From: Clostridia bacterium
GTDB taxonomy: Bacteria > Bacillota > Clostridia > Christensenellales > UBA1242
DNA: 38,782 nt
Direction: 5' to 3'
Assembly: GCA_028709705.1 (NCBI GenBank)
Contig: JAQVWL010000008.1
Coordinates: 1-38,782, forward strand
Shown: positions 4,036 through 34,101 of the stretch, one piece after another
How the letters are laid out: every line of letters begins with the position of its first letter
Position numbering within the stretch: position 1 is the stretch's first letter
Program-made: the position numbers and the translations under genes
Notes under the pieces: generated by a model
What the model saw: only the letters and a program-made list of their open reading frames with translations
Told to the model about the DNA's origin: nothing
Databases searched by the model: none

Positions 4036-4327
4036 TGCAATAAATCCTTGCGGATTTATGCAATTCACTGCGTGAATGCCATATGCTAACGCATATGCAA
4101 TTTGACTTTCGGCAAATTAAGGTTTTTATTTTAAAAAATTTGTTTGGTCCAAGAGCCTGCGAAGTGCTGTTACACCCAAATTCGTCCGTAAAAAATCAAA
4201 ATAAAAACCATAATGCCCGCGTTAGCGGGCTCATAATGTGTGCCAACGGCACACTCTTCATGAGTGCCAACGGCACTCGCATCATGTGTGCGAAAGCACA
4301 CTCATCATGCGGGCGGAAAGCCCGCTC
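4036..4327. repeat. Array of short perfect hairpins with different arms
   Basis: Between rnhA and the convergent ABC permease lies a string of hairpins. Left block: ATAAATCC/GGATTTAT (4040-4059), ATTCAC/GTGAAT (4063-4077), CATATGC/GCATATG (4080-4097), AATTTG/CAAATT (4099-4118), spaced by GC or GCA. Then a 12-bp inverted repeat GGTTTTTATTTT (4121-4132) / AAAATAAAAACC (4198-4209). Right block: GCCCGC/GCGGGC (4215-4230), GTGTGCC/GGCACAC (4238-4254), GAGTGCC/GGCACTC (4262-4278), GTGTGC/GCACAC (4286-4301), GCGGGC/GCCCGC (4309-4325), with TCATCATG-like spacers. Arms differ in sequence while loop size and spacing are kept. ORFs across it are not credible. Confidence 0.85.
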
Positions 4328-4356
4328 AAAAAAATGTGCAATCTGCACATTTTTTT
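4328..4356. terminator. Bidirectional terminator
   Basis: A7TGTGC (4328-4339) pairs with GCACAT6-7 (4345-4356), loop AATCT. Oligo-A and oligo-T on either side allow termination from both the rnhA side and the minus-strand permease, whose stop codon it overlaps. Confidence 0.85.
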
Positions 4357-9401: not shown

Positions 9402-9430
9402 TTGACATTTTTCAAAAAACAGCATATAAT
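9402..9430 (+). promoter_or_regulatory. Promoter of RNase P RNA
   Basis: TTGACA (9402-9407), 17 nt, TATAAT (9425-9430), with the expected start at about 9437-9438, exactly at the first base of helix P1. Confidence 0.92.
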
Positions 9431-9437
9431 ATACTTT

Positions 9438-9978
9438 GTTAGTTAGCCAGATGGTCGCGGTCCAATCGTAATGGTTGGAGCGAGGAAAGTCCGAGCATCA
9501 AGAGAACTGGGTGCCGGTTAACTGCCGGTGAAGGCGACTTTAAGGAAAGTGCAACAGAAATAAACCGCTCCTATTATCATAAGTTAAAGTTTTGTTTTAA
9601 GTTGTTGAAAAATGCTTGGAACACTCTTCGGAGAACTGCTTTAACAAAAAGTACGGGCAAAACCGCCAACAAAGTGCGGTTTTCGCTTGGCCCGTAAGGG
9701 AGCAAAAATAGTCCGTCAAGGCGATGCTTTTTTCGAAAGAAAAAACGAGCACAAAGGACTTGTTTTTGCGGGAGCAAGGATGGAAAGGCGGTGTAAGAGA
9801 CCACCGCCACAATGGTAACATTGTGGGCTATGTAAACCCCACCTGATGCAAGGTTAAGTGATAACAATGTGCTTGTTCTCTCACGTTATCCAAAAATACC
9901 GCTTGAGCGGTGTAGAGATGCATCGCCTAGATAGATGACCGTTTAATACAGAACTCGGCTTATAGACTAACTAACACC
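9438..9978 (+). ncRNA. rnpB: RNase P RNA (type A-like) with enlarged P12
   Basis: This is the catalytic RNA of tRNA 5' maturation. Helix P1 is GTTAGTTAG (9438-9446) with CTAACTAAC (9967-9975). Conserved core motifs include GAGGAAAGTCC (9482-9492), AGTGCAACAGAAA (about 9548-9560), P13 GGCGGTG...CACCGCC near 9787-9808, P14 CAATG...CATTG, and ACAGAACTCGGCTTAT near the 3' end. The gene is about 540 nt, against roughly 350-400 nt for most bacterial RNase P RNAs. The excess of about 165 nt lies between GCTCC (9567-9571) and GGAGC (9771-9775), the P11/P12 region. A strong promoter and terminator bracket the gene. Confidence 0.96.
9605..9769 (+). repeat. P12 insertion of RNase P RNA, homologous to dispersed elements
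   Basis: This block folds into TACGGGC/GCCCGTA (9652-9658/9690-9696) extended by AAAACCGC/GCGGTTTT (9659-9666/9676-9683). A second arm follows: GCAAAAA/TTTTTGC (9702-9708/9763-9769) with AGTCC/GGACT (9710-9714/9756-9760), capped by a TTTTTTC-GAAA-GAAAAAA hairpin. A CTC-TTCG-GAG hairpin (9624-9633) precedes it. The same module, with helix-preserving changes, recurs at 18359-18503 and 27438-27562, outside any RNase P context. Confidence 0.88.
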
Positions 9979-16378: not shown

Positions 16379-16509
16379 ATTGCAATTAAAAAATGAAATA
16401 GAACAGCAATCGAAAAATGAAATAGAACAGCAATCGAAAATAATAAACATTGCAATCGAAAAATGAAATAGAACAGCAATCGAAAATAATAAAAATTGCA
16501 ATCGAAAAA
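16379..16509 (+). repeat. Alternating tandem repeat in the 5' UTR of the HTH gene
   Basis: Two related units alternate. One is 24 bp, built on AATGAAATAGAACAGCAATCG, and occurs three times. The other is 22 bp, built on AATAATAAACATTGCAATCG, and occurs twice, with a divergent first half-unit at 16379. All share a GCAATCGAAAA tail. The last tail merges into the AAAGGAG ribosome binding site at 16507-16513. The units contain stop codons, so they are non-coding. Confidence 0.85.
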
Positions 16510-16521
16510 GGAGTTAAAAAA

Positions 16522-17131: not shown

Positions 17132-18283
17132 ATGATTTATTTAGATAACAGTGCAACTACATATCCCAAGCCCAAAGAAGTTTTGACAGCGGTGGCGGAA
17201 AGTTTTAGAAAATATGGAGCAAACCCCGGCAGAAGCGGGCATTCTTTTAGTGTTAAAACTGCAATGAAAATTGCGGAAACAAGAGCAAATATTTGCGATT
17301 TTGTTGGTGCGGAAACCCCAGAAAATATTGTTTTTACAAGTAATTGCACCGAGGCACTAAACCTTGCAATTTTGGGTACTTGCCAAAAAGGTGGGCATAT
17401 TATTTGCACCGCCAACGACCACAATTCCACCTTGCGACCAATTTTTGAACTTAAAGAAAAGGGACTGGTTGAAGTTTCAGTCGCAAGCCCATCAAAACCA
17501 AATGTTTTGGACCTTGAAGATATTGAAAAACTTGTAAAACCCAACACATATTTGATTTGTTGCAACCATATTTCCAATGTTGATGGAATGGAATGTGACA
17601 TAGATAGTATAGGCAAGTTTTGTTTTGAAAAGTGTATAACTTTTTTGGTGGACGGCGCGCAAAGTGTTGGGCATAAAAAAATTGATATGACAAAGCAACA
17701 TATTGATATGCTTGCAATTGCTCCGCACAAAGGACTTTATTCGCCAATGGGCGTTGGAGTGCTGGCTTTCAATTCCAAAACCAAAATTTTGCCAATAAAA
17801 TTTGGCGGAACGGGAACAGATAGTTTTAGTGTAAATCAACCCCAAAATCCGCCCGAGTGTTATGAAAGCGGAACGCTTCCAACACCCAATATTATTGGCT
17901 TGAATGCAGGTCTTAATTTTGCAAAACAAAATTTTAACATAATAAAAGAAAAATTTGATGACTTGACAACATATCTAAATTTTGAACTTTCAAACATAAA
18001 AAACATAAAAGTTTTTACGCACCCAGACAATGCAAATGGCATTTTGGCGTTTAATATTGCAGATATGCAGTCAAGCGAAGTTGCGGATATTTTGGACCAA
18101 AAATTTGGCATTATGATAAGAAGCGGACTGCATTGCGCGCCCCTAAAACATCGCAGTTTGGGAACAATTGAGCAAGGCACAGTAAGGGTTTCTTTGTCTT
18201 ATTTTACAACCTTTGATGAAATTTTGAAGTTGATAAGAGCGGTAAAGAAAATAGCGAAAGTCAACGGGGACGCTAGTAACTGA
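17132..18283 (+). CDS. NifS-like cysteine desulfurase family protein
   Basis: This 383-aa PLP-dependent class V aminotransferase-fold enzyme is expected to take sulfur (or selenium) from cysteine or selenocysteine. The N-terminus MIYLDNSATTYPKP and VDGAQSVGHKKID (PLP Asp at about D174) are typical. The PLP lysine is K200 in APHKGLYSP, and the likely catalytic Cys is C335 in RSGLHCAPLKH. The family resembles the smaller desulfurases found with DUF3343, which is encoded divergently next door. The last nine residues, AKVNGDASN, and the stop codon are encoded by the end of a dispersed repeat element, so the natural C-terminus was probably replaced or trimmed by an insertion. Confidence 0.93.
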   Translation: MIYLDNSATTYPKPKEVLTAVAESFRKYGANPGRSGHSFSVKTAMKIAETRANICDFVGAETPENIVFTSNCTEALNLAILGTCQKGGHIICTANDHNSTLRPIFELKEKGLVEVSVASPSKPNVLDLEDIEKLVKPNTYLICCNHISNVDGMECDIDSIGKFCFEKCITFLVDGAQSVGHKKIDMTKQHIDMLAIAPHKGLYSPMGVGVLAFNSKTKILPIKFGGTGTDSFSVNQPQNPPECYESGTLPTPNIIGLNAGLNFAKQNFNIIKEKFDDLTTYLNFELSNIKNIKVFTHPDNANGILAFNIADMQSSEVADILDQKFGIMIRSGLHCAPLKHRSLGTIEQGTVRVSLSYFTTFDEILKLIRAVKKIAKVNGDASN

Positions 18284-18604
18284 CACGGGAGCGTAAGCGG
18301 GAGGGTCAGTTGACTACGTCCCCTTGACCTGTTTTTTGTAATACAATTTGATAATAATTCTTGGAACAACTGCTTTCAAAAAAAAGTACGGGCAAAACCG
18401 CCAACTCAGTGCGGTTTTCGTTTGGTCCGTAAAAGCAAAAACTTACCTGATAAAGCGATGCTTTTTTGTGAAACAAAAAACGAGCACAAAGGCAAGTTTT
18501 TGCGTGTGTCAAGGGGACGTAGCACGCTTGACCGTTCGCCTACGGCTCCTGTCAATTGCTACGTCCCCGTTGACCCTTGCTACTACGTCCCCGTTGACCC
18601 TAGC
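18253..18604. mobile_element. Composite inverted-repeat element carrying a P12-like module
   Basis: The left end, AGCGAAAGTCAACGGGGACG (from 18253), continues through CTAGTAACTGACACGGGAGC to ACGTCCCCTTGACC (18329). The centre (18359-18503) is homologous to the RNase P P12 insertion. The right end (18507-18604) is an inverted version with GTCAAGGGGACGTAGC, GACCGTTCGCCTACGGCTCC and TGCTACGTCCCCGTTGACCC, the last part present twice. There is no transposase gene. The shape suggests a non-autonomous MITE- or REP/BIME-like element. Its left end supplies the 3' end of the NifS-like gene. Confidence 0.8.
18359..18503 (+). repeat. P12-like structured module, copy 2
   Basis: This aligns with 9616-9769 of rnpB. 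The shared helices are TACGGGC/GTCCGTA with inner AAAACCGC/GCGGTTTT, GCAAAAACTTACC (18435-18447) / GGCAAGTTTTTGC (18491-18503), and TTTTTTGT-GAA-ACAAAAAA. The CTC-TTCG-GAG hairpin of rnpB is missing. Several differences from rnpB keep the pairing. Confidence 0.85.
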
Positions 18605-27334: not shown

Positions 27335-27562
27335 AAGGGTCAACGGGGACGGTAGTAACTGACACGGGAGCGTTAGCGGGAGGGTCAGTTGACTACGTCC
27401 CCTTGACCTGTTTTCTGTAATATAATTTGATAATAATACTTGGAACAACTGCTTTCAAAAAAAAGTACGGACAAAACCGCCAATGAAATGCGGTTTTCGC
27501 TTGGTCCGTAAGGGAGCAAAAACTTGCCTGATAAAGCGATGCTTTTTTGTGAAACAAAAAAC
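27335..27562. mobile_element. Dispersed element, left end plus truncated P12-like module
   Basis: The left part, from GGGTCAACGGGGACG (27338) to ACGTCCCCTTGACC (27408), is nearly identical to 18261-18329. After the same linker comes the P12-like module (27438-27562) with TACGGAC/GTCCGTA, AAAACCGC/GCGGTTTT, GCAAAAACTTGCC (27516-27528) and TTTTTTGT-GAA-ACAAAAAA. The right half that would supply GGCAAGTTTTTGC and the inverted end is missing; the sequence changes to the infC promoter region at about 27563. It is a 3'-truncated copy. Confidence 0.8.
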
Positions 27563-30362: not shown

Positions 30363-30484
30363 TGAGCGAGCACGAAGTGCCCGCATGATGAGCACGCTTC
30401 GCGTGCGTGATGCAAGTGCCGTTAGCACTTATGATGAGTGTGCCGATGGCACACATGATGAGCAGGCGGTTCCCGCCCGCATTA
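30363..30484 (+). repeat. Hairpin array in the yebC 3' UTR
   Basis: Successive hairpins: GAGCAC/GTGC (30367-30380), GCACGC/GCGTGC (about 30392-30406), AAGTGC/GCACTT (about 30414-30430), GTGTGCC/GGCACAC (about 30438-30454), and GGCGG/CCGCC within the GCGGGC-type unit (about 30466-30478). Spacers read ATGATGA or GTGATGC, the complement of the TCATCAT spacers in the arrays at 4231-4308 and 34007-34080. It runs into a conserved terminal hairpin. Confidence 0.85.
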
Positions 30485-30513
30485 ATGCGTGGGACCGACC
30501 GCGTATTTTTTTT
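30485..30513 (+). terminator. Terminal hairpin of the array, terminator of yebC
   Basis: ATGCGTGG (30485-30492) / CCGCGTAT (30499-30506) with T8. The sequence TGCGTGGGACCGACC is shared with the arrays at 15130 and, inverted, 33970. Confidence 0.75.
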
Positions 30514-30641: not shown

Positions 30642-30770
30642 AGCGAAGGTCAACGGGGACGCTAGTAACTGACACGGGAGCGGTAGCGTAGGTCAACAAC
30701 GGGGACGTAGCACGCTTGACCGTTCGCCTACGGCTCCTGTCAATTGCTAACGTCCCCGTTGACCCTTGCT
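30642..30770. mobile_element. Short dispersed inverted-repeat element without P12 module
   Basis: The left end is AGCGAAGGTCAACGGGGACG, then CTAGTAACTGACACGGGAGC, an internal second GGTCAACAACGGGGACG, then GACCGTTCGCCTACGGCTCC and the right end ACGTCCCCGTTGACCCTTGCT. Both ends are flanked by T-runs. It corresponds to the outer parts of the 18253-18604 element fused without the centre. Confidence 0.8.
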
Positions 30771-33795: not shown

Positions 33796-33934
33796 AGCAA
33801 GGGTCAACGGGGACGCTAGTAACTGACCTAAGAAAAACCTACAATTTTCATTCACAGTAAACAAACAAAAATAAAAAATAAACAAACTTACAACAACCTA
33901 TGTCAGTTGCTAGCGTCCCCGTTTGACCTTCGCT
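33796..33934. mobile_element. MITE-like element with 32-bp inverted ends
   Basis: The left arm (33796-33827) starts AGCAAGGGTCAACGGGGACG and the right arm (33902-33934) is its near-perfect inverse, ending CGTCCCCGTTTGACCTTCGCT. The 74-nt core is AT-rich, holds no gene, and differs from the cores of the other three copies. There is no transposase in the window. Confidence 0.82.
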
Positions 33935-33965: not shown

Positions 33966-34101
33966 ACGGGTCAGTCCCACGCATTAATGCCCGCGTAAGC
34001 GGGCTCATCATGTGTGCGAAGCACACTCATCATGCGGGCGGAACGCCCGCTCATCACGAGCACAAAGTGCTCTCATCACGAAGTGCCAAAGGCACTTCTC
34101 A
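33966..34101 (-). repeat. Hairpin array in the 3' UTR of the TIGR04086-type gene
   Basis: In plus-strand coordinates: the end box GGGTCAGTCCCACGCATTAA (33968-33987), GCCCGC/GCGGGC (about 33989-34004), GTGTGC/GCACAC (about 34012-34026), GCGGGC/GCCCGC (about 34034-34050), GAGCAC/GTGCTC (34058-34072), AAGTGCC/GGCACTT (34081-34097), with TCATCAT or TCATCAC spacers. Read on the minus strand it follows the stop of the gene ending at 34104 and finishes with the same TGCGTGGGA hairpin as the arrays after rarA and yebC. Confidence 0.85.

Follow-up and report, generated by a model that had tools for sequence, protein, structure and literature searches.

Palindromic repeats of the REP and BIME types are moved by RAYT (Y1) transposases, IS200/IS605-type elements transpose as single strands, and the 3′ ends of tRNA and tmRNA genes are classic att sites. 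The element described here, a copy of which lies within rnpB, the RNase P RNA gene of a Clostridia bacterium that, to judge by its relatives, lives in the gut, shares with REP/BIME and IS200/IS605 the short imperfect hairpins, the apparently non-autonomous character and the absence of a visible target duplication, but is unlike the REP/RAYT system in lacking a Y1 gene in this genome and in most strong carriers, in its larger two-domain structure and in its placement at tRNA borders. It resembles MITEs in being short, non-coding, dispersed and presumably moved in trans, and differs from them in having no terminal inverted repeats or target-site duplications in the pairs of copies compared. With the integrative elements found at tRNA 3′ ends it has in common the use of tRNA and tmRNA 3′ ends as sites and the presence of tRNA 3′ fragments beside some copies; in contrast to these, it has no linked integrase or cargo, comes in units of ~0.13–0.3 kb, and also occurs in the sense direction at tRNA 5′ ends and at non-tRNA sites.

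The nearest kind in style are the Rickettsia palindromic elements (RPE), palindromic repeats of 100–150 bp found inside existing genes in small genomes (PMC3767692), the likeness being one of kind only, by description and not by sequence. RPE are known for their insertion in Rickettsia ORFs, whereas the present family belongs to Clostridia, has copies for which no ORF preference was seen, and brings one of its ends to structured RNA genes. Repeats within rnpB are already known, as is shown by the title of the report on STRR sequences in the RNase P RNA of heterocystous cyanobacteria (Vioque 1997, reference B108 of PMC2858038); by that title they are short tandem repeats, whereas here a single two-hairpin element is found, with relatives at tRNA genes. 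No description of the element family was found in the open-licence literature, which is weak evidence of its novelty. Among short hairpin mobile repeats the family is unusual in its end-specific placement at structured RNA genes and in having one copy inside an essential ribozyme.

The RNase P RNA gene and its P12 insert

The window, i.e., the whole stretch of 38,782 nucleotides that was analysed (contig JAQVWL010000008.1), contains rnpB with the following features, and the original prediction of an RNase P RNA of about 540 nt with extra sequence in P12 was borne out by the Rfam match.

9402-9430, plus strand: sigma-70-like promoter upstream of rnpB, TTGACA-17-TATAAT (consensus scan, 12/12)
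9439-9978, plus strand: rnpB, RNase P RNA class A, 540 nt (RF00010, 254.8 bits, model 1-367; alignment with 13 relatives)
9567-9571, plus strand: 5′ strand of the P12 base stem, GCTCC, with its partner GGAGC at 9771-9775 (predicted fold, sequence)
9605-9644, plus strand: upstream part of the element, the D0 region, with the CTTGGAACACTCTTCG motif common to other copies (copy comparison)
9645-9769, plus strand: conserved core of the element, D1 and D2, the 3′ end being the D2 foot (covariance models R1 and R2)
9652-9696, plus strand: hairpin D1, with the 3′ bulge CGCTTGG (fold and covariation analysis)
9702-9769, plus strand: hairpin D2, with inner loops and cap (fold and covariation analysis)

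The core of rnpB was aligned with RF00010 from end to end and is intact, with a single long insertion, in P12 (9605-9769, known from one MAG assembly), around which the fold prediction keeps the base stem GCTCC/GGAGC closed. The D2 foot abuts this stem on its 3′ strand, a position that matches the placement pattern of the family described below. When close relatives were aligned, the insert was missing from four species of the same genus, in which rnpB has a short P12 and a length of 353–379 nt as against 540 nt here. In a 30-genome sample the remaining full-length rnpB matches that passed the cut-off were no longer than 407 nt, and therefore none of them has this insert.

In a search against Rfam 15 the inserted core had no match, and the gathering score was passed in the window by RNase P, 16S and a tRNA only; at four loci searched with E values up to 5, only tRNAs and sub-threshold, chance-level matches appeared. 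A sub-threshold match to Gut-1 RNA was seen elsewhere in the same genome (L003, 902-975, minus strand; 40.9 bits against a gathering score of 50, E 2.4e-5).

Copies of the element and their conserved structure

By BLAST the insert has 14 matches at 79–100% identity in the genome, which comprises 924 kb on 29 contigs. Recurrence at 18359-18503 and, truncated, near 27438-27562 had been predicted, and both copies were recovered, with 82% identity for the first and 84% for the second (found at 27439-27562, truncated at its 3′ side), along with 11 further places; the covariance model gave up to 18 matches in this genome. Copies of a palindromic unit, GTCAACGGGGACG, lie around or apart from the element:

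18260-18574, plus strand: composite repeat, with the GTCAACGGGGACG palindromic unit flanking a core copy on both sides (repeat comparison)
18380-18503, plus strand: core copy of the element (R1, 138.2 bits)
27339-27562, plus strand: composite copy, 3′-truncated, with a GTCAACGGGGACG palindromic unit at 27339-27400 and its core part at 27459-27562 (repeat comparison, BLAST)
30649-30763, strand unspecified: GTCAACGGGGACG palindromic unit without a core copy (repeat comparison)
33803-33927, strand unspecified: GTCAACGGGGACG palindromic unit without a core copy (repeat comparison)

The GTCAACGGGGACG units accompany the core (~125 nt, 9645-9769 in rnpB) in six or seven of the genome copies. The unit has 31 exact consensus matches in the genome, and some of its copies enclose the element; since others occur without the core, it is a separate repeat, and the proposal that P12 had been mobilised inside a GTCAACGGGGACG element found no support. 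Another dispersed palindromic repeat, of the CACACTCATCATGCGGGC type, was noted at 4211-4328 and 33985-34053, with inverted relatives at 30379-30500, as was a short repeat, GCAATCGAAAAATGAAATAGAACA, with a 22/24-nt spacing at 16382-16519, perhaps a repetitive coding stretch.

Comparison of the copies gave the anatomy of the element. Its core of ~125 nt consists of two hairpins and is extended to as much as ~160 nt by an upstream hairpin. D0 is a short hairpin-like stretch that usually lies upstream of D1; D1 carries the signature AGT-NNNGNC-(A/C)AA..TT(G/T) and the 3′ bulge CGYYTGG; the long hairpin D2 has inner loops and a cap that is variable. Where near-identical copies have different flanks, their sequences diverge 0–2 nt from the D2 foot, barring chance likeness of the flanks.

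A first covariance model, built from 15 copies, found the element in 27 of the 98 genomes of the taxonomic family (13 of its 42 genera), with no more than 18 copies per genome, and a second found it in 38 of 297 genomes of the order, spread over about nine families; the search of this genome and its relatives thus returned a structured family. Its presence is patchy between sister species. Class-wide, matches outside the order were few and weak; one of them (L338) has D2, but its D1 lacks the usual bulge. Named genomes scanned with a pattern gave, among the matches listed, mostly uncultured Clostridia, Firmicutes and Christensenella-like MAGs, together with three records from other phyla (L256, L259 and L287), which are probably chance matches. 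IMG/VR gave no viral match to one exact pattern of the element, and no match was found in plasmid and phage collections with the rnpB sequence as query.

The copy in rnpB is nested among the rest of the copies of this genome. Two equal-scoring copies directly before tRNA-Glu and tRNA-Lys (L117 994-1127 and L118 1029-1162, on G000:C26 and C27) group instead with copies of another genus (g25) and not with the rest of this genome, for which transfer, an old lineage or MAG contamination are alternatives.

The original prediction was that the copies keep the same helices through compensatory changes. This stands for the stem AGTCC/GGACT of rnpB, which is CTTGCC/GGCAAG in most other copies; the copy at 18441 has CTTACC/GGCAAG, with an A-C mismatch, the perfect covariant form being present in other genomic copies, and CTTGCC at 27523 provides no evidence, the 3′ partner strand having been lost with the truncation. 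The change of the cap from TTTTTTC/GAAAAAA to TTTTTTGT/ACAAAAAA is real. Across the family the conservation of structure goes far beyond chance: none of 200 shuffles folds as well as the element, and 500 column shuffles all stay below the covariation observed. In an alignment of 73 distinct rows that was fitted to the covariance model, and so favours structure, 94.5% of cells are paired and double changes occur at 35 of the 37 pairs, a level of pairing that neither the shuffles nor slid registers approach.

What did not hold up as well is the further step to selection on an RNA fold. At the well-paired positions G-U makes up 0.8–1.5% of cells and A-C 0.4–0.5%, as compared with 4.7% G-U in the tRNA acceptor stem and 10.6% in the T stem at the same loci, and 8.8% in rnpB. 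One Watson-Crick pair is exchanged for another almost without G-U, and the G-U-tolerant compensatory change looked for as a sign of a functional RNA was not found in the element despite its strong covariation. Because G-U is nearly absent, it seems, from these sequence comparisons, that a DNA hairpin, or both strands, are maintained rather than a single RNA fold alone, a caution that strong covariation by itself does not prove RNA function.

Placement at tRNA and other structured RNA genes

Its association with tRNA genes is the family's most striking property. In 45 of 213 non-redundant copies a tRNA or tmRNA gene begins no more than 10 nt from the 3′ end of the element, whereas not one of the 213 has such a gene that close to its 5′ end. 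A plain sign test of 3′ versus 5′ end gives 2^-45, the copies not being independent of each other. In 36 of the 45 the element runs antisense and abuts the CCA end of the gene, and in 9 it is in the sense direction, standing directly before the tRNA 5′ end; the targets comprise fourteen tRNA types and tmRNA. Two further copies lie just before 16S (L093, L275). The orthologous tRNA-Asn and tRNA-Thr sites of sister species are empty of the element. Copies at tRNAs, or at fragments of tRNAs, are found in three sister species. In about two thirds of all copies neither a tRNA nor a fragment of one is seen at the 3′ end. The sequence downstream of these shows more structure than background (p 0.0009), and that upstream at least as much; no general preference for hairpins on the 3′ side is claimed for them, since the 5′ side is equally structured. 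Tandem arrays of two to four element copies adjoining tRNA genes were also seen (L169, with a 273-bp period, L063, L051 and L212).

So strong an association with tRNA genes could also be produced by a device useful to the host at tRNA borders, such as a bidirectional intrinsic terminator or a tRNA maturation element, that is kept by selection and has reached rnpB by accident. In the window's genus D2 does resemble a hairpin with A-tract, GC stem and T-tract, and sister species have simple terminator-like hairpins in the corresponding position after tRNA genes. However, the T-tract is missing from D2 in the g113 and G111 copies, and the sense copies lie 2–8 nt before tRNA genes, several of them in tRNA clusters, and a terminator placed there would silence the gene; a general role as terminator was rejected on these two grounds. 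The terminator scan called none at D2 within rnpB, and both the patchy presence between sister species and the near-absence of G-U speak against a device of this kind, which is unlikely.

Some 20 further copies are followed by a 3′ fragment of a tRNA. In several of these the fragment is exactly 21 nt long, Ser, Leu, Gln and Lys tRNAs all being broken at one and the same point of the T loop; 21-nt 3′-terminal fragments were recorded beside copies at L146, L148, L169, L178, L179, L180 and L220. In three g113 species the sequence that follows the break is identical for both Ser and Leu tRNAs.

Such fragments could be att cores if the element were the remnant of an att arm of integrative elements that use tRNA 3′ ends, put there by a tyrosine recombinase. 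The standing of tRNA and tmRNA 3′ ends as att sites fits this, as do the sequence shared after the fragments in the three g113 species and the 273-bp tandem units, which contain the core together with the element. Against it, nearly the same type of element is found at many different tRNAs of one genome and also at sense and non-tRNA sites, the fragments accompany some copies only, within about 1.5 kb of the copies there is no linked recombinase gene or other ORF family, and the conserved hairpins would have no role, all of which makes an att origin quite improbable. The fragments have also to be set against tRNA-primed reverse transcription, in which the 3′ end of a tRNA would prime on the TGG after the element and copying as far as the T loop would yield element-TGG-21-nt units that were then inserted. 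A TGG with antisense tRNA is indeed found 0–8 nt after the 3′ end of the element, much like a primer-binding site, and the common T-loop break in several copies with 21 nt of Ser, Leu, Gln or Lys tRNA would follow from it; yet fragments of 14–48 nt also occur, and neither the sense copies ahead of tRNA 5′ ends nor those at 16S and in rnpB are accounted for, so that priming by tRNA is very improbable.

Direction and proposed mode of movement

The sequence comparisons indicate that the element invaded rnpB and that P12 did not escape from it, because P12 is short in the sister species, the rnpB copy is nested among the genome copies, and the sisters carry copies at tRNA sites. The invasion of rnpB, one of two directions originally considered, is further supported by the order-wide family. 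The opposite one, that the P12 domain escaped from rnpB, was mobilised and gave rise to the other copies, has the shared sequence itself in its favour and can hardly be maintained: it was rejected on the sister rnpB genes, which lack the insert while the sisters carry the element at tRNAs, and on the order-wide range of a family that no other full-length rnpB match of the 30-genome sample contains.

No gene family was found linked to the copies within about 1.5 kb, and a linked autonomous gene was discarded as a candidate, the ORF clusters shared between loci looking like translations of the element, of tRNAs and of neighbouring repeats. The Y1 (HUH) transposase PF01797 is absent from this genome (G000) and from most strong carriers (G017, G031, G052, G054, G064, G066, G068, G072 and G112; present in G038, G093 and G111), by which it was ruled out as partner. 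Neither terminal inverted repeats nor a target-site duplication were evident at the borders of eight related pairs of copies. The AGT before D1 is conserved and, on informal comparison, differs from the GTAG motif of REP.

Taken as a whole, the insert in P12 is probably best explained as a copy of a short, non-coding and non-autonomous mobile DNA element of two or three hairpins. The family belongs to one order of mostly uncultured Clostridia, and its copies have a precise 3′ end at the D2 foot that is set preferentially at the border of a structured RNA gene. The borders used are those after the CCA of tRNA and tmRNA (antisense), before tRNA or 16S (sense) and beside REP-like palindromes, and the loop of P12. 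The copies may have been moved in trans by an enzyme acting on the hairpins as single-stranded or cruciform DNA, which is the weakest step of the account. The P12 loop would tolerate the insert, P12 being a variable peripheral helix whose predicted base stem is closed around it. More doubtful, and put forward only tentatively, is the idea that the mobile element recognises the folded structure of RNA genes as such (tRNA, tmRNA, the 16S leader and P12 of RNase P), either through recognition of hairpin DNA or through tRNA-primed copying.

If this tentative idea is true, the class of bacterial mobile element would be new, having colonised the substrates of RNase P as well as the RNase P RNA itself. 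With a mobile element inside it, an essential ribozyme gene offers a natural test of how much P12 can tolerate, and a family aligned at tRNA borders by one defined end is a lead to machinery that targets structured RNA genes in bacteria.
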